A DNA stretch of 64,000 bases from Arctopsyche grandis. Its lineage: Eukaryota; Arthropoda; Insecta; Trichoptera; Hydropsychidae. Shown here one piece after another: positions 8,129-22,300 of this stretch (positions within the stretch are counted from its first letter, which is position 1; each line of letters opens with the position of its first letter). The DNA lies in contig NC_135361.1 of NCBI RefSeq assembly GCF_051622035.1, forward strand, positions 26,529,205 to 26,593,204, written 5' to 3'. The notes under the pieces are model-generated. The model did not search any database. It saw only the letters and a program-made list of their open reading frames with translations, and was not told the DNA's origin. The translations under genes and the position numbers were made by a program.

Positions 8129-8390
8129 TTTTATTTAACCAACTTTAACATTACCTTTGTAAAAGACTTTAATTCGGTATACAGGCGGACCTCAACTTTC
8201 GCACATTCGACTTTCGCACAATTCGCTATTTCGCACATTTTTCAAAAATCGTTTTTTTTTTTTTTTTTGGTGCTAATGCAAAAATGTTTGTTTGCGTGCA
8301 ATTGTTTCCCTCTCCTCCATTCCCTGTCGCACTATGAAATGCGTATGAACGAGCCCGTACTGTGAAAAGTGTTACATCCTGCACGGCATA

Positions 8391-9746
8391 ATGATGGATG
8401 AAATGGAGAAATCTTTGTCTTATTGGATAAGTGACCAAAATCAAAAAACTTCAATAATTCAAGCTAGAGCTCTTAGTTTGCATAAAGATTGGAAGGATAG
8501 ACTAAAAGAAGATTCTAACACGGTGTTTCATGCAAGTCACGGCCGGTTTTCAAATTTTAAAACAAGATATTCTTTACACAATATTAAATTCACTGGAGAA
8601 TCAGCTGATGCGGATGAAGATGCTGCAAAAGACTTTTTTTGTTCATTGTCCAAAATTATTGAAGATGGTGAATATTCCTCTAGTCAAATATTTAATGTAG
8701 ATGAGACTGGTTTATTTTGGAAGCAGATGCCTAATCCTACATTCTTATCAAAGGAAGAATCAGTTGCCCCTGGTCATAAACCTTCTAAAAACCGATTGCT
8801 TCTTGGTGGAAATTTAGCTGGTGATTTAAAATTGATGCCAATGTTAATTTATCAAGCAGAAAATCCTAGAGCATTGAAAGGGAAAGATAAAAAATTGTTT
8901 CCAGTCATTTGGAAATCAAATAAAAAAGCCTGGGTTACTGCTTTAATATTTAAAGATTGGTTCACTTAACATTTCGTACCAGCAGTAAAGCAATATTGTG
9001 AAGTTAATAATTTACCATTTCAAATATTATTAATCTTAGATAATGCTACAGGACACCCAAAATCTCTACAAAATTTATATCCAGAAATCAATGTTGTGTT
9101 TCTTCCCCCCAATACTACGTGTCTCATACAACCCATGGACCAAACAGTGATAGCTACGTTTAAACGATATTATATGAGGTCGATAATGAATCAGGCCATC
9201 AAGACAACTGACATGGAAGGTGGGCCCACATTAAAAGATTTCTGGAGGAATTATAACATATGGAACGCAATAAACAATATTGGAGACGCGTGGGCTGAAA
9301 TAAAAGAGTCAACAATGAAAGGTTCATGGAGAAAACTATGCCCACAAATGATGGGTGATATAAATTTTGATGAAACTCCAGAAACTATCACACTTGAAAT
9401 AGTCCTCTTAATGAACGAACTTAACCTAAATGTTAACATTGAAGATATTAATGAGATGATTGAATCTCATTCTGAACCCATGAACAATGAATTTCTAATG
9501 GACCGGCAAGAGAACGAGAATGATATACATATTGAAAGTGAGGAAGAAGAACCAGAAGAAATCATTAATACCTTAACTATAAAAAATATGAACGAAGCTT
9601 TTACGCGTCTCGAAAAGTTTTTGAACATTATGGAAGACTGTGATCCCAATGGAGAACGAATATCTCAAGTACGTAGGGCTATTCATAAGAGTACTGTCTG
9701 TTACAGAACTCTCTATGAAGAAAAAAAAAATGTCATATTCAACTAA
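8391..9746 (+). pseudogene. Tigger transposase with one in-frame stop
   Basis: A single frame of 452 codons carries one internal TAA at 8967-8969 (after KDWFT). The part before it has a CENP-B-type helix-turn-helix (LHKDWKD, ASHGRFSNFKTRYSLHN) and the first catalytic Asp in FNVDETGLFWK. The part after has the second Asp in LLILDNATGHP and the third in LIQPMDQTV, 32 residues later, followed by an acidic C-terminal region. The N-terminal psq-type HTH normally preceding the CENP-B motif is absent; the ATG is only 209 bases from the element edge, so an internal deletion is likely. The rest is undamaged, which suggests recent inactivation. Confidence 0.85.
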
Positions 9747-13240: not shown

Positions 13241-14685
13241 TCTATGATCTGTAAGTTATGAATATAAAAATTATCCAAAGGTAATTTTTTGTCAAAGTCT
13301 GTCTTTTGGCAATGTTAAAATAAAATGTTTAATATTTTCTTAAATGAAAATTGTATTCTATGTGAATTGAATATAATGTTAGGTTTACATGGTACATTTA
13401 TAAATAAAAAATCAGGGAAAAAAGGGGATAAATAAAACCATAGATATTAAATATACCAGATATTTTTTTAATTTTCTGGATACACACATGACAATATAAT
13501 GTCTATGTTCAAATCTCTTAATATAAATATATTATTCTTTTTCAAGTATATAAATATAACATTGCTACAAAAATGTAAAACAATTTAGGTACAGTTCCTA
13601 CAATTATATAAATAAAGTAAATAATGCGTTCTTTAATTGAAAATTAAAAAATAAAAAAGATCTGATAATAATACAATTGTAATGTGTGTGAAACCCTGAG
13701 TATTTCATACGTTTATTTAAATCAAAGGAAAACTCGTCCGTTTCATTTTGAGGTATAAGAGTTATGTATTAATTTTATAACAAGGAATTAGGTATTTACT
13801 TATGCCTAAAGGTGAATTTAATATGGACAATGGTGTAAAATGTAATATGATTTGGAAAGTTATCGAAGAAATTAGAGTTATCGGAAACCATACGGAAATA
13901 TTGGATGTAAAAAAGCAACAAATACAATTAAAAAAACGGTTTAAATAAGTAATTTATAGTATTTAATATGTGGGATTAGATTTTATGTGTCTGTTTTTTT
14001 TTTCAATTATTACAAAGAAGTGATATTGTAAAACTGGACAGGTTCGCAGATTTTTATTATAGTATACGCAAGTATAACTGTATAAGAAAACGTTTATAGA
14101 TTATCATTGGGCAAGAAATATCCAAATTACAAATTTTGGAGTTGTTTATAGGTTAGCTTTGATAAATATCGTACAGAATTGTTATAAATAGAGAGAAAAT
14201 CTTAACAAGATATTTTGGCAAGTCGGTCCCTAAAAATTAAGTTTAAATAATCAATTAAAAATAAAACTATGTAAAGTTAAATAACAAATACCGAATACAT
14301 TTTTGAAACAATTTAAAAGGCAATGAAAATGATCACAGAGAGTATATTCATACATATTTATAGATTTTACACGATTGAGACAGATTAATATGTAATACAT
14401 TTTACCTTCCTGATAATAATTCCGCTTACTTATTATAGTTGCTTTTATATAATAAAAGTGATTTAGTCGTTGTCATGGATATTGGTTACTGAATGTCTGT
14501 TTAAATATTGTCTCCTTAGAATGCAACTTCAAGCATAACGAAATTAGCACATTTCTTAAGCGAATATCGGATGAAAGCAAAATTAAATAAAAAAAATCAG
14601 TTCTATATACTCTCATGAAAAAAAAACGATAATGTACATACATTGATAAGATGGTAATGAATCAGTTTTCAAACCACCGATAATC
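13241..14685. other. intergenic, no gene seen
   Basis: Very AT-rich sequence between the LINE A copy and a TTAA MITE. Nothing coding was recognised. Confidence 0.6.
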
Positions 14686-14689
14686 TTAA

Positions 14690-15167
14690 CCATTTGCCCG
14701 CGGCCGTCTTCTATGGAAGCTTTGGGCGACAAGTCTGTAGCGCGGCTGTCTTCCATAGAATTTCTGAACTTTGCACGGGATTTTGAGGCTTATATGCGCC
14801 TATTTCAACTGTTTTAAGGTTCAAAATTGGTTGAATATATTACTGAGAGTTGAATGCCATCTATTCAATTTGCTTAAAATGAATATATACCAGTCGAAAA
14901 TTAGATTTTTGTGGAACCATACTCAAACCTCGTTTATGTGACGTCACATCTTCATACAATTATGAAGAATGATTATTTGACAATTAATCCAAAACTACGA
15001 GATATATTATGTATTTTATTGTTTAAAATAATACTTTATGTGTTAATTAACATATCTGGTTACTTGAGTAAATATTAAAATCTGTATTTAAGGTCGAAAA
15101 TTCGATTGCCAAATTTGCGAAAAAGGTGCCGGGCTTGTTCGCTATATTTATTGCCGCTGGCAAAGGG
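14690..15167. mobile_element. piggyBac-like MITE, 478 bp
   Basis: It is flanked by TTAA (14686-14689, 15168-15171). The ends are CCATTTGCCCGCGGC and, inverted, CCCTTTGCCAGCGGC. The core is non-coding. Confidence 0.65.
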
Positions 15168-15171
15168 TTAA

Positions 15172-16362
15172 TAGAGACTCATCCTTGTACCATTGTTGTC
15201 ATTCCTGCAAACAATTTAAAACTGCACATATACTCTATAGAAACAACATTTTCCAAAGTGCAAAAACATGTGTGATATATAATTACAACAATAGTGTAGT
15301 ATATTCTAAAGTGATTTTTCACAATGAAAGTATGAGACGACGTGACATTAGGTGACATATTTATTTATTTATATGTGAAAATCGATGGCTGAAAATGACG
15401 CGTGAAATGATAATGATAATAGTGACACAATATAAAACTTATCATACAATAATTATATTTTAAGAATTACAATTTGTAATACATATATAAAGATATAATT
15501 GTGGCTTTGCGACCAACTGCGACACTACCGACCTTACAGAGAATATAAATACGTATCTGTTATTATCCTAATAATTTTATATTATATTATTATAAAGCAT
15601 ACATGTATAACATATTTAATTTTTACATACAATGCGAAAATTTCAAATCATTTTGTTACATTTTTGAAGTCCGTACTGAATTTTAAATCACACTTTCAAA
15701 AACGTCACCAAAATGACTAACTCATTTTCACCACTTTATCTGATAATACTGTAAAAATACACTGAATTTACACTTATATATTATTCCCTATTTATTTATA
15801 ATATAACAATTATTATTTCAAATAAAATAAATAAATGCATTTATTCATGTTTACAAACATATTAGAACATTCTTCTATCTTGTTCTTCGCACAAACATTG
15901 ATACGTGCTTACATATAAATGTTCGCATATCAAATCTAATTTAAGAAATGAATCATATTCTTTACATCTTTTTGCAATATGGAAAAATAAGAACATTAAA
16001 AAATTAGCAATGATATGCGTACAATATATAAAATATATATACACGCTAACAGTTACAACAATAATTATAAATACTTCATATTTATTTAGCTTTGTTATTT
16101 TTTTGGTGTTTATATTAATTAATTACAATTCGGCCATTAAATTTATATTATACACTTTCGTATGAAATAAATAAACCTTTTTCAACATTATAAAAATATT
16201 TATCATTTGCAACGCAATGAAACAAAAGGAATGTATGAATTCAGTAATAAATAATAGAACATAATGTAAAGGATTTGTAACGTAATGTCACCGAATGTTA
16301 AGGTGCATATTTGAGACGCCGTTACGTTTGATTGTCACCGTTGAATTGTGCCACATTGATTA
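15172..16362. other. 3' flank of slit and its extension
   Basis: AT-rich sequence that probably holds the 3' UTR of the transcript ending at 16363, including the AATAAA at 16081-16086. Short frames on both strands are not supported. Confidence 0.5.
16081..16086 (-). terminator. candidate polyadenylation signal AATAAA
   Basis: AATAAA on the minus strand lies about 280 bases beyond the 16363 stop, in an AT-rich stretch. It is the first one past the long extension and could end the transcript that contains it. Such hexamers are frequent in this base composition, including inside the extension, so the call is tentative. Confidence 0.35.
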
Positions 16363-18990
16363 TCATTGCATACCTTCGAATCTGAACTCCATGGAGTATC
16401 CAGTGTAAATGGCAAGAGCGAACATGGACAAAACAGACAATAGAAAGACTTTCGTGATGTCTATTCTGCGGTTGCCAGAATTAGTTTCAAAGTTCATGTT
16501 ATTCTTTACGTCGAACTTCGTCAGGAACGAGTCCTGATCTGGTTTATCTTGACCTGATGATTTTTCAGAAAACGCATTCGAATCTTTCGGTCGGCTGCCA
16601 ACGTCGACTTTCTCTAATATGGTATGTCGTGTGTCCACGACTGGGATAATCCTCACGCCGGATTCTTCAGCGAAGTCTTCTTCGCCGACGGCCCAGAGGT
16701 CGTCCAACTCCTTACCTGTCTTTTGTTTCCAATCTTCATTGGAATTAGAGCGCTCTGTTAAAACCCCACTGGGCCCCTTGCTATGGAATGGAATCTGCTT
16801 TTCTAGTCTGTCATCTACGTTGCCTTCCGATCGATGTAAGATCGGTATACTCTCTTTAGATTCAGTGCTCTTATCGAATATAGTCTTATTATCATCGTTA
16901 TATTGTTTATTGTTTGCTCGTCTGCTTGATTTGTCTTCTTTCTTTACATCATTCAATAGTTGAATTACATCTTTTGAATCGGGACCGAGAATATCTAAAA
17001 TGTTCATGTACACATTTTTCACATGATTTTTTCCATAATCTGTAGAGAATGTATTTCGATTTCGATTGATATCAATAGTGCTGTTTTCGATTTTCATCGT
17101 TTGATTCCAATTGAAATTTTTCCTTTCACTCTCAATAAAACTTTTATTCATGCTCTTATCAAAGCGATCAGGAATTTTGATAACATTTTCAGTTACTTGT
17201 GTAGTTTCTTCTCGATTTATATTTATAACTTCGGGATGCAATTTACTGTCTGGAAAGCTTTCTGTAATTGGAATTACAGTAGTTGTAGTTGGAACTTCTT
17301 GTAGTTTAACAGTAGTTGTAGACAATTTGCCAAATTCATCTGGAATAAATTCGTCTTCATTGTCATAATAATCATCGTCATATGGCAAATCGTCAATTTT
17401 CGACTTTGAAAACTTGTCGATGGGTGATTTGACCATTCCTTTAGTGGTCCATACATTCGGTGCAACAGGTTGTGAAATGGTTTTATCAACTTCTTGTTTA
17501 GGATTAGAGCTAGGTATGGGATTAAATGAAACAGGAACTTCAGTTTTAGTTGCTCCACCTCTGTTTGAATACCATTTAGGATTGGATTTAGCATTTTTCT
17601 CAAAGCTGTCGTTATCTTGGGATTCTTTATTTTTGGATTTCACTAACAGTGCAATTTTACCATCTGATGTCATAACGGCTGAAACTTTATTCTTCTCTGA
17701 TTCTTGATAGAAATTGTTAGTATTTTTATGTTCCGCTTTAGCGGCGAATTTGTCGTTATGGGTGGATTTGATTTTATTTGTAACACTTTCATTATCATCA
17801 ACTTGAAACAGAATTTTAACTCTACCACTCGGGGTATCAAATGTTTTGATCGCTTTATCTAAATTTTTGTTCTTATTATCATGAGTTGTTTCTTGTTTCA
17901 AGTCTGCCTTACCTTCTTCAACGCTTGCATCATCTGCCCACATATATATCGTATAATCAGTATTATTCAAATTCTCCGTTTGTATAGAACCTTCTATCAA
18001 TTTATAGATATCATCATGGTTATCAATCACACTATGGATTTGCTCTACCTCATCATTCTCATAAATCTGATCATTTTGAAGGTAACTATTGTCAGTATTA
18101 TCTTCAACTATATCGAAATTATCATCAATATGATCCCTGCTGTCTACTAAATGCTTCAAATATTTTTTAAATTGAATCTTTGATTCGTTTCCTTTCTGAT
18201 CTATCTTTGAAACAAGCTCTTCAAAGTCGCTCTTTTTGAAATCGAAAGTAACGTTAGCTTTGAGTTGTGATTTTTTCTCAAAATCTCTTTTGATTAACTG
18301 AAATAGATTTTCCAATATAGAGTCATCGTTGGAATTTGGGAAAAGATCAGAGGCGAATTGTGGCAATTGTTTTAAAAACGCATTTTTCTCAGATTTTGAA
18401 ATATTTGCAATTATGATTTCAGGATCAATTTCAGATCTGTCATGCGAATTTGTATCCTCAAATATAACCCTCACTGAATCGAGCGCTGAAATGTTTATTT
18501 CGGTACTCGTTCCTTCAGTAATAGGATACAATAACTTCTCATCGTTGTCTATATAAGACTCGTCACCTTCTAGGTATGAAATAACTTCATCGTCATCGAT
18601 TTTATCTTCAACTTCTATAACACCCGGTACGATGACAAGTTTTTCATCTTCTGCCTTCTTCACATCATTAACAACGGCGTCGTAACTATTAGCACTCAAC
18701 ATATAACGAAAATCATTGTTGTTATTAAAATTAGATAAATCATGGCCTGAACTATTATTAATGTTAACGTCTTCATTGCTCGTATAATCTGAATGATTTT
18801 TTACATTATAATTGTGGCTATTAATACTATAATTATGAAAACTAATATTATCACTATTATCACTAGCGTTAAGGATAGGGTCATTATTACTAATCTTAAC
18901 TAGGGGTAAGTCCTCTGATACTGCAATTATTTGCAATAAGCTGGTGGTAGGCTGGTCGGTATTGAAGTCGCGGTTGGCCGCCGTGCCCAG
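16363..18990 (-). CDS. 875-codon open frame directly after the slit stop, with C-terminal membrane segment
   Basis: The frame of slit stays open past its TGA (context AAC TGA CTG) for 875 codons, to a TGA at 16363-16365. The first in-frame ATG is 96 codons in, so this is not a simple separate ORF. The product starts Asn/Asp/Ser-rich (NNSSGHD, NFNNNNDF), continues with acidic and lysine-rich low-complexity sequence, and ends with a hydrophobic segment (VFLLSVLSMFALAIYTGY) and a short tail, EFRFEGMQ. No known domain is recognised. It may be a readthrough or alternatively spliced extension of Slit, or the last exon of an overlapping gene: possible acceptors end at 18952 (phase 0, matching the end of exon 28) and 18921 (phase 1). 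Several N-x-S/T sequons are present. That it is coding is strongly supported; how it is expressed is not. Confidence 0.8.
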   Translation of the reverse strand: MGTAANRDFNTDQPTTSLLQIIAVSEDLPLVKISNNDPILNASDNSDNISFHNYSINSHNYNVKNHSDYTSNEDVNINNSSGHDLSNFNNNNDFRYMLSANSYDAVVNDVKKAEDEKLVIVPGVIEVEDKIDDDEVISYLEGDESYIDNDEKLLYPITEGTSTEINISALDSVRVIFEDTNSHDRSEIDPEIIIANISKSEKNAFLKQLPQFASDLFPNSNDDSILENLFQLIKRDFEKKSQLKANVTFDFKKSDFEELVSKIDQKGNESKIQFKKYLKHLVDSRDHIDDNFDIVEDNTDNSYLQNDQIYENDEVEQIHSVIDNHDDIYKLIEGSIQTENLNNTDYTIYMWADDASVEEGKADLKQETTHDNKNKNLDKAIKTFDTPSGRVKILFQVDDNESVTNKIKSTHNDKFAAKAEHKNTNNFYQESEKNKVSAVMTSDGKIALLVKSKNKESQDNDSFEKNAKSNPKWYSNRGGATKTEVPVSFNPIPSSNPKQEVDKTISQPVAPNVWTTKGMVKSPIDKFSKSKIDDLPYDDDYYDNEDEFIPDEFGKLSTTTVKLQEVPTTTTVIPITESFPDSKLHPEVININREETTQVTENVIKIPDRFDKSMNKSFIESERKNFNWNQTMKIENSTIDINRNRNTFSTDYGKNHVKNVYMNILDILGPDSKDVIQLLNDVKKEDKSSRRANNKQYNDDNKTIFDKSTESKESIPILHRSEGNVDDRLEKQIPFHSKGPSGVLTERSNSNEDWKQKTGKELDDLWAVGEEDFAEESGVRIIPVVDTRHTILEKVDVGSRPKDSNAFSEKSSGQDKPDQDSFLTKFDVKNNMNFETNSGNRRIDITKVFLLSVLSMFALAIYTGYSMEFRFEGMQ

Positions 18991-19360
18991 TCAGTTGGAG
19001 CCGTGGCCACTTCTAGAGCATTTTCTAGAACAGGCGCACTTGCGCACGACGTCCACGTCTTTGGTGTATCTGGTGCCGTCACTGCACACCAATCTCACCT
19101 GAAACAAATTGACATTATTAGAATACAAATGTCCAGAAGAGTGTATTCAATTTGGCATTGATTGTAGAGTACTTTTCTGCGTTTGGTGTTGCGCGGTGTG
19201 CAACAAGCGTGTGCCCCGCACGCCGTAGACGGTTTACACCGGGCTGTCCTCAATGGACGACGGCTTTTACAAGAGCCTTCGCTGTAAAATTCTCTGGTGG
19301 CTTCTTTCCGGCAGGCAACTCCAACTGTCGATGGACTTCCATTGCCAGGACGATTTCCTC
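18991..19360 (-). CDS. sli: slit exons 28-29: C-terminal cystine knot and stop
   Basis: Exon 19173-19360 encodes a Gly/Ser-rich lead ([20 protein letters not shown]) and the first half of the knot ([27 protein letters not shown]). Exon 18991-19098 completes it: [20 protein letters not shown], then [15 protein letters not shown] and TGA. The spacing of Cys residues and the CxCxxxC end match the Slit CTCK domain, and the stop lies a few residues past the point where other Slits end. Both exons are GC-rich against an AT-rich background. What follows the TGA is described in the next entry. Confidence 0.95.
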
Positions 19361-22300
19361 CTTTAATTATACATATTTTTGATTTTTAAATGCTTTTAAT
19401 TATTACTAAATTATGTGCACAATGCATCTGTAGGAATAATGTCCATCATACTAACGAGAACTCTAGTGCCAAATATTCCGTAATCGCGATTTTAATGTCA
19501 AAAATTGTCTCTTATCCAATTACCTTTTTTACACTTCTTTATATCCTTTCTCAGATTACTATCTTCTATCAAGAGGGTGTCTGGTTCACAGCATCAAAAG
19601 TCGAAAGATCGAAAAGTAAATATAGGAAAGCAAAGATCGAAAAGAATGTATGCATGGTAAACGGTACCATGTATATATAATATATACCAGTGGTGTGAAA
19701 TTCTCTCTCTTTTTGTCAAAAATAGAGAGAATTCCTGCGCGGGCAGGATATGGGAGGAAAAGCCTGTAGGAATATAGCACGACTTGTGCTATTACGAATC
19801 AAAACCAGTGATCTCATCATCGATCCTGTATAAACATGCATAACTCAAGGGCAACGTCCCCTTCGACCATTCCAGAAGAAAGAGTTCATCGCTCGATCGT
19901 AAAACGAACGAAACCCAACAGTGATGTCATCAGGAAACTGTAACACGTGTCCTAAAAAGTCGTTTACGCGTGTCACATGCCCGCATTTTTAAATGAACGA
20001 CGTCCTGGCGCTGACCCCATAGCAATAAACCACACGTGTACAGAAGATACGTGCCTCGAAAACAGGTCAATACGTGTTCCTAACACACGTGTCCTGGAAA
20101 CGAAGAAGAAGCATCTGCACGCGGCACGCTTCAAGCCAGAACGTATATAAAGTGATGCAACAGCTCCCAACACCAGAGTGAACCTCTGGAGTTCAACCAG
20201 TTCACTTCTCCGAAGCTCAACCTCTTCGTACATACAATAACCATTGTAACAATTGAACAAAAATAAACGATCCTCTTACAAACTACACAACATGTGTTTC
20301 ATTAGGCCGGGATACGGTCAACATACCTTTCCTGCCTTACACATCTTATATCTATTTTAATAGCCACTGATCTACTGATCATTTTCTATTTTACAATTTT
20401 ATTTAGTAATTATAGTATTATATTCAGAGAAATATTATTTAGGCGTTATATCTTTGTCAAGTGACGATTGTCCATAGATATTCCTAAATAATTTTAGCAT
20501 CAGTCGTATTTGATGCTTGATGCTTGACACATGTCTGGTAAAAACTTCTCTGTTTGTTTATATTACTCGCAAGATGGGCAAGCATCGTTAAAAATTGCAC
20601 AATGCATTCAAAAACACACAATAAACAACATGGGATACACTTTTATAAGTAAATTGATCTGATTGTATTCCGTGCGTTGTAGCGTAGTTATGGAGACTTA
20701 CCGTGTAATATTGACACAATTTATTTATTCGTAAGGGCCCTTCTATTATTATAACATTTCTCTGATTATATTATTCTAATGTTAATGTACAGCATAATAG
20801 GAAAAAGAGCTCAAAAGCCTATAATTACACATATGGATATTATTATGTTTATTTGAATGCACTATAATGTGGTACAGAATGAATACATTTCCGAATGCAG
20901 TGTGTGACTTTCTAAACGCAATTTTCATTAATATATTATAACTAGTGCTATGCCCGTTGAAAAATCATCGCCTGAGTGTTGGCATATTAAGTTATTATAT
21001 AAAAAAGAATTAAAAGAAATATGTCGGTGCTGTGTTCGATCCGCACGGGGTCGAATTTTTTTAAAATACCTTTAAAATAAATATAATTTAATAGTTTGAT
21101 ATGAAAAAAAAATGGTAAAACCTACCTACATATAAATAATATAAAACACCAATAGAAAAAATAATTAATTATATAAATTTTCAATAGATGGCGCTAAATG
21201 CTCAGAGACACAGATACACATAATAGTGATATTATATATATGAATATAAATAGTATAATATACCTTGTCCTGTGCCTGTCGATGAATCACCGGAACCATG
21301 TTGTTTCGGTTTAAAACCATTATTTTTGTTATGTCCTAATGCTGTAGAACCACCTAAATAATACAAAAAATCCATAATTAAAAATTAACATACGAAATTT
21401 AATAATTAAATTCAAAAATAAGCCAACCAATGGATGCCAAAAGTTCGCATTGTGGACCCCGAGTGCCAGGCTTGCACCGGCACGTATAATCACTTTTGGA
21501 ATCGCCTTCTTGTACACACTTTCCACCCCTCTTACACGGATTCGGAATACATGCTTCCTAAAATACAAAAACGATTTAATTAAAATCGTTAAAGCTTTAT
21601 ATTTCATTATTAAAAGTAGGAAAAAGTATGCCTTTAAAGTGACCTGTGTGTCTCGGGGGTCGCCTTGCATTCCGGCTGTGGATGGAGGTGGTTCAACTTC
21701 CATTTCTTCGAGAAGGGCACATCCTGGAGTAACACGAACTTGCCTTGCTGCATTTGTAAAGTCAACTGGTTTATGGTTGATCCACACTTCTTTGAAGCAT
21801 CCTTTGAAAAGTATTATATAATTTAGTTATATGGTGTTTTAAGTACATTTTTGATGTGGGCTCTTTAGGCATACCTCTGAAGCTTGTCAGATTTCTGAGA
21901 TGCCATTTATTAAAAGCATCCTTTCCAGCATCATCTGGTAGTCCTCCAAGGTATAGAGGTTTAGAAAGTCGCAAGAACTCTTTAGGACCTTCATTTACTA
22001 TCGATCTTGCAGGGCCACCGTCGACTCGAAGTGTGAAATTCTTTTTAATTGCCAATAATTCAGCTTTGTGATAGGTACTATCTGATACCATTTCAAAGCT
22101 TGAAATAATATAAACACATTATTTTAAATGTTTATTTAATACGAGAAAAGATGTAGCAAAAATGATTTTTCTTTAAAAATACCTGTACATTGTAGAAACT
22201 GGATGATTACCAACATCATAACTAACTCGAATCCGTCCGTTGAACAGTTCAACTGCCAAATGATCTTGTGCTCCAAAATACATTAGAACTCCATTTTGTT

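Follow-up and report, generated by a model that had tools for sequence, protein, structure and literature searches.

Slit is a textbook secreted repellent, and headcase and kelch of Drosophila are classic readthrough genes, with a long functional extension behind the stop codon. Conserved stop-codon readthrough genes of Drosophila were reportedly described by Jungreis et al. in 2011, and conserved readthrough is itself abundant in insects. Here, we analyze the slit locus of the caddisfly Arctopsyche grandis in a stretch of 64,000 nucleotides (contig NC_135361.1, forward-strand positions 26,529,205 to 26,593,204; "the window"), in which the slit stop codon is followed in frame by 875 open codons, referred to below as the tail. 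This locus resembles headcase and kelch in its long post-stop extension; the products of those two genes are intracellular and are not known to gain a membrane anchor. FlyBase holds 328 readthrough genes, whose extensions range in length from 4 residues to over 1000 (PMC4528330). Like the conserved Drosophila and Anopheles readthrough genes (PMC5100048, PMC4528330), caddisfly slit has a conserved second open reading frame (ORF) in frame with the first, a stop context of the leaky type, and a long, low-complexity extension that is predicted to be disordered. It differs from those genes in that its product would gain a membrane anchor on a secreted guidance cue. Dunn et al. 2013 (PMC3840789, Table 2) list Drosophila genes, for example Nplp2, in which readthrough likewise adds a predicted transmembrane segment, and those extensions are short by their coordinates.

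Short-range action of Slit has been studied by means of artificially tethered alleles, which in Drosophila are slit-CD8 and slit-GPI (PMC7648596). Part of the repulsive activity is retained by slit-CD8; the explanation favored in that study is that tethering enhances the processing or cleavage of Slit (PMC7648596). Both alleles share a C-terminal membrane anchor with the product proposed here and differ from it in that their anchors are engineered. There is no mention of slit or sli in the main texts of PMC5100048, PMC3840789, PMC8417969, PMC4528330, PMC4999894, and PMC13170385, and a search of the literature by titles and abstract openings, with supplementary lists and FlyBase outside its scope, found no link between slit and readthrough. 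On this point, PMC9380857 refers just to a FlyBase "Slit isoform C." We consider conserved, programmed readthrough of the slit stop codon to be the best explanation of the caddisfly locus, and probably the correct one.

The open frame behind the slit stop codon

The NCBI slit protein of A. grandis (P0005) was placed exactly on the minus strand for 1445 of its 1515 residues, in 29 blocks. This exact map and the Pfam accessions recorded for P0005, which we take to be those of LRR, EGF, and laminin G, identify the gene as a slit with the usual domains. P0005 ends in SGHGSN at the TGA at 18993-18991 (minus strand), and therefore the NCBI annotation excludes the extension. The minus strand around the stop reads GGC CAC GGC TCC AAC TGA CTG GGC ACG. 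The resulting context, UGA-CUGG, compares with UGA-CUAG, a motif established for readthrough in humans (cited in PMC5100048).

From the codon after this TGA (18990), 875 stop-free codons continue in the slit frame, which was reported in a preliminary description of this DNA and is confirmed by the sequence and the ORF listing. Taken stop to stop (16363..18990, minus strand), this frame of 875 residues is the longest in the 64 kb, and the next one listed has 258. Noncoding frames do close quickly here, as had been claimed: among 1502 open runs in slit intron sequence, the longest has 149 codons, 26 reach 78 codons, and 342 reach 24 codons. A run of 875 codons is far outside chance. A chance frame match over the first 24 codons alone would be unremarkable, and it is only to these two dozen codons that the earlier caution about a partly fortuitous match at the 5' end applies.

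The earliest in-frame ATG is codon 97, and the 96 codons before it had been described as more than an independent intronless gene could explain. A codon model for which codons 79-875 of this tail served as the training set supports this for codons 25-78, which score +19.2 bits in frame 0 versus -28.5 and -98.0 bits in the other frames and so appear coding in frame 0 only, and is uninformative for codons 1-24 (+1.4 versus -12.4 and -12.7 bits). Protein similarity to a relative, P0001, begins at codon 79 (18756), also ahead of the first ATG. The tail was the single match in a search of the insect's own 475-Mb genome. The second ORF is open in frame from the stop, as in readthrough genes, and at the protein level it is conserved as coding sequence. 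Judged by its sequence, the tail is a real and old protein-coding region. The features of the locus are as follows.

19173..19360, minus strand: penultimate coding exon of slit; exact match to P0005 residues 1419-1481, splice sites resolved; presumably the beginning of the C-terminal cystine-knot region
18994..19098, minus strand: last annotated coding exon of slit; exact match to P0005 residues 1482-1515; the acceptor TTTGTTTCAG precedes 19098
18991..18993, minus strand: slit stop TGA (UGA-CUG-G), the proposed readthrough site, located by the sequence and the end of P0005
18973..18990, minus strand: first six codons past the stop, LGTAAN, aligning with the dipteran-like block L[KQ]DA[AT]T
16366..18990, minus strand: 875-codon extension, acidic, rich in Asn, Ser, and Lys, and free of cysteine; based on sequence, homologues, and the one match in the genome search
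17800..17850, minus strand: conserved motif A, IKTFDTPSGRVKILFQV (dipteran form IKIISTPxGKVGIVYQ), from comparison of a profile of five caddisfly-type tails (A1) with one of 19 proteins from the mixed-alignment search described below (A3)
17635..17694, minus strand: conserved motif B, KNKVSAVMTSDGKIALLVKS (dipteran form KITPVLTPDGKVALLYRG), from the same comparison
16954..16998, minus strand: motif LDILGPDSKDVIQLL, invariant in the five A1 tails save for K/R at its ninth place
16393..16464, minus strand: C-terminal hydrophobic, transmembrane-like segment (best 19-mer hydropathy 2.03), followed by nine residues
16363..16365, minus strand: second stop TGA, which closes the extension, followed by an in-frame TAA

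The acceptor TTTGTTTCAG at 19098 (minus strand) directly abuts GTGAGA, a good donor (score 6.7), and this acceptor-then-donor arrangement presumably resembles that of recursive splice sites. A search of the PDB with the last slit exon (35 residues) gave no match at an E value of 1. Elsewhere in the window, plus-strand frames of 206 and 258 codons lie in the same frame with one stop between them (8349-9746).

The tail has no cysteine and contains 17 N-glycosylation sequons. The membrane segment that had been noted at its end is present as a run of hydrophobic residues at about 843-866. The disordered stalk proposed in the preliminary description is consistent with the structure prediction for most of its length: in an AlphaFold2 run that rested on five sequences and is weak evidence, the predicted local distance difference test score (pLDDT) averages 32.1, and 797 of the 875 residues lie below 50. 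A helical stretch at about residues 203-285 reaches a pLDDT of about 60-70, and therefore the stalk need not be wholly disordered. The model also has low-confidence strands at residues 436-450 (motif B) and a low-confidence C-terminal helix at residues 845-873. No Pfam family was found in the caddisfly tail at an E value of 1, and 19 of its relatives yielded a single match, in one protein (E = 0.072), which was not used. If the tail is read from secreted slit, it would form an extracellular stalk and the helix would be its membrane anchor.

Relatives of the tail and their linkage to slit

A search with the tail found four proteins, none of which contains slit sequence: P0001, of 775 residues and 60% identical to the tail in the alignment, and P0002 to P0004, of 1248-1280 residues and 31-32% identical. 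A search with slit plus tail gave 87 matches, seven of which are slit models fused to a tail with a hydrophobic end. These come from Anopheles christyi (P0044), A. coluzzii (P0053), A. epiroticus (P0068), Drosophila gunungcola (P0066), D. busckii (P0071), Glossina pallidipes (P0073), and the beetle Diabrotica balteata (P0090), and they were retrieved via their slit part, not via likeness to the caddisfly tail. Most of the dipteran fused tails nevertheless share IKIISTPxGKVGIVYQ and KITPVLTPDGKVALLYRG with the caddisfly IKTFDTPSGRVKILFQV and KVSAVMTSDGKIALLVKS; P0073 retains the second motif only. The 87 matches include no long Drosophila melanogaster sli record, which clustering could hide. 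FlyBase has reportedly given sli a newer identifier, CG43758, and may include an isoform as long as about 2150 residues; should that isoform exist, the fly case has already been predicted.

A further search, in which the two kinds of tail were aligned together as the query, found 97 proteins among 7987 candidates scored, and 96 of them were new (P0092 to P0187). Every new protein with an organism name is from Diptera. Together with the four from the tail search, these make the 100 relatives counted below. Comparison of A1 with A3 gave a probability of 96.1% (E = 3.3e-9) over 71 columns spanning motifs A and B, although it is not wholly independent because the query that retrieved the A3 proteins was a mixed one. 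By this comparison, the trichopteran and dipteran tails are homologous. For the beetle tail of P0090, the match to the profile of the dipteran tails is suggestive only (probability 13.4%, E = 0.0021). The P0090 tail is short, with a hydrophobic segment at its C terminus and the residues ...KQR...MQWW, and resembles the dipteran end ...FKQRILDQIRLMHW. Collections of bacterial/archaeal and viral contigs contained no tail relative.

A C-terminal hydrophobic segment, defined as a 19-residue window with a hydropathy of 1.6 or more, is present in 94 of the 100 relatives. P0001 (1.54) and P0004 (1.58) fall just under the cutoff, and P0117, P0134, P0146, and P0182 end differently. A signal-like N terminus, for which some 12-residue window within the first 45 residues had to reach at least 2.2, was found in none of the 100. 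Six of the 96 new proteins (P0141, P0143, P0145, P0147, P0148, and P0151) extend past the usual ...HW as HW-W-EMVGVRYWVG[LF]SRRGG, and P0155, P0180, and P0184 have a similar extended end without the extra W. Should the extra W likewise stand for a TGA, it may mark another conserved leaky stop.

The preliminary description had held that absence of the frame downstream of slit in close relatives would speak against readthrough; it is present downstream of slit in Diptera. Slit and the tail protein are on contigs of equal size in Glossina fuscipes (59,948,022), Rhagoletis zephyria (222,701), Phlebotomus argentipes (13,537,201), and Sergentomyia squamirostris (115,307), and from these equal sizes each pair probably shares one contig. 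In both Diptera and Trichoptera, the tail adjoins slit directly downstream.

Six of the 96 new proteins (P0106, P0109, P0114, P0153, P0160, and P0161) are ORFs that join slit to the tail in one frame. They comprise three sequence types, are dipteran by likeness, and begin within or before the last slit exon. Each reads ...DIVRKCGCTKKCY-W- and then LKDATT, LKDAAT, or LQDAAT, and continues to the hydrophobic C terminus. Because the unfused dipteran slits examined terminate at KKCY or nearly so, and because other ORFs show HW-W-EMVGVRYW, the W in these six ORFs is most likely the slit UGA decoded as Trp. At the stop position, the relatives thus have W and then Leu at the protein level, and the caddisfly has UGA-CUG. 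Immediately past the stop, the six ORFs share the conserved block L[KQ]DA[AT]T, and beyond it their sequences diverge, a pattern that fits a readthrough signal, a translated junction, or both; the likeness of caddisfly LGTAAN to this block is weak, with L and A in fixed places.

Two mosquito models touch the same junction. The NCBI "partial" model of Anopheles funestus (P0092) starts with LQDATTHKPPP and has no start codon. The A. christyi model P0044 passes from slit ...RKCH to ATTHEPPP, and comparison with A. gambiae slit (P0036) and P0092 indicates that about nine to ten codons spanning the stop have been omitted. A gap of nine to ten codons is too short for an ordinary intron, and from this comparison across species the omission looks like an annotation workaround. 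In the dipteran and dipteran-like sequences, conservation from the first post-stop codon favors readthrough over either splicing or a separate gene.

Readthrough and its alternatives

The readthrough suggested in the preliminary description has strong comparative support from the old coding region behind slit and by the continuous frame in six dipteran-like ORFs. Several observations weigh against it. The NCBI slit protein (P0005) goes no further than the stop, annotations of several flies make the tail a distinct protein (P0095, P0107, P0149, and P0150), four mosquito models (P0093, P0094, P0096, and P0122) share the start MMQND, and slit is absent from the eight fly transmembrane extensions of Dunn et al. 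2013 (PMC3840789, Table 2). RNA structure 3' of the stop is ordinary (z = -1.24; 25 of 200 shuffles fold equally well). Within Trichoptera, the comparison covers codon 79 onward, because P0001 begins at its own first ATG. The third-position guanine-plus-cytosine fraction falls sharply from 0.88 (codons 1-17) to 0.23 (codons 18-78), and this break in 18990-18757 (minus strand) may mark an old exon junction. The equation of W with TGA is drawn from protein sequence. Finally, phase-compatible splice routes are present in the caddisfly. These involve the following sites.

18914..18920, minus strand: candidate acceptors at 18920 (score 1.4) and 18914 (5.4), offset 1, needing a phase-1 donor
19038..19039, minus strand: candidate internal donor caa/GTGCGC (score 3.8) in the last slit exon; first intron base 19039; frame-compatible with 18817

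Alternative splicing that bypasses the TGA would give a slit isoform with the same membrane tether and no readthrough; we regard it as unlikely. The scoring matrix was built from 27 of the 28 slit introns and evaluated in-sample, with true acceptors at 4.1-13.9 and true donors at 2.0-10.7, and the acceptor scan covered 18990 to 18600. By one route, a phase-1 donor would join an alternative last exon at 18914 or 18746, with loss of the knot exons; the phase-1 donors on offer are that of exon 27, at 21263, and a weak internal one at 19270 (4.5). By the other route, the cryptic donor 19039 would join acceptor 18817. Acceptors 18914, 18746 (7.3), and 18817 (4.7) and donors 19039 and 19270 all score inside the true range, and the composition break at codon 17-18 is consistent with a splice junction. 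The seven fused insect models use such joins, and several of them exit slit within its last exon, but these models are predictions obliged to avoid a stop, and their joins differ from one to another. The donor of exon 28 itself is unlikely to be used in this way, because it requires a phase-0 acceptor and these peak at 0.9 within the scan; the acceptor at 18951 put forward in the preliminary description is indeed phase-compatible with exon 28, but its score is -3.1. Furthermore, the dipteran-like L[KQ]DA[AT]T starts at the first post-stop codon, and no acceptor can lie upstream of that, which argues against splicing in Diptera.

Less probable still is that the tail has a start of its own, whether as a separate gene downstream of slit or as a second cistron of the slit mRNA, and that its 5' frame match arose by chance. 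The distinct annotations in flies and the common MMQND start are what such a gene would predict, open runs of 24 codons are frequent by chance, as counted above, and a cytosolic tail-anchored protein needs no signal peptide. However, other than in the four MMQND mosquito models, starts differ among the 15 named tail models (14 of which begin with Met), and MMQND lies internally in P0092 and P0044. None of the relatives has a signal-like N terminus, yet nearly all have a membrane-like C terminus, the slit frame is shared by all three sequence types of continuous ORF, and in the caddisfly both the coding signal and homology begin before the first ATG. The final exon that had been proposed near 18920 meets a poor acceptor there and a moderate one at 18914. 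When upstream exons of an independent tail gene were sought by tblastn of P0001 to P0004 against the window, no match outside the tail was better than E = 0.56. In the genome, P0003 matches the tail locus only, with residues 754-1264 (E = 1.1e-48) and 522-623 (E = 0.027), and nothing matched its residues 1-521 with an E value of 1 or less (three candidates scored). The missing signal, the group-specific starts, and the coding sequence before the first ATG therefore disfavor a separate gene.

Two other ways of passing the UGA were considered. Adenosine-to-inosine editing of UGA to UGG (Trp) would produce the extension by mRNA recoding, and the W that the six ORFs have in place of the stop is compatible with an edited transcript, but P0153, which has intron-like residues before the slit exon and looks genomic, has this W as well; editing is very improbable. 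A selenocysteine insertion sequence (SECIS) was sought in 14000-19500, where two Rfam matches up to E = 5 included no SECIS family, and decoding of the UGA as selenocysteine is disfavored because of this.

A putative membrane-tethered Slit

We infer that a single mRNA carries both slit and the tail. With readthrough, most ribosomes would halt at the UGA and release the ordinary secreted Slit, while a fraction would insert an amino acid at the UGA (UGA-CUG-G) and translate a further 875 codons. The extended protein would consist of the full set of Slit modules followed by a long, acidic, cysteine-free, and mostly disordered stalk with two short conserved motifs, predicted to be of beta type, and by a C-terminal helix that spans the membrane and leaves a very short end in the cytoplasm, which would make it a type I membrane-tethered Slit. 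Once cleavage had separated Slit-N from Slit-C, the portion left on the membrane would be Slit-C with the tail, and its function would be to provide a short-range, cell-bound pool of Slit.

More tentatively, and with somewhat less than even confidence, we suggest that this UGA switch has been kept since at least the split between Trichoptera and Diptera, perhaps also in beetles, and that one mRNA thereby sets the ratio of diffusible to cell-bound Slit. The six conserved codons after the stop might act in cis as its signal, and proteolytic release may be governed by the stalk.

If readthrough of slit is confirmed, it would be a case of a very long extension that alters the topology of a protein and does not just add a short tail. 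A natural tether would bear directly on the studies of Slit with engineered anchors (PMC7648596), and its conservation would make the question of short-range Slit action directly testable.

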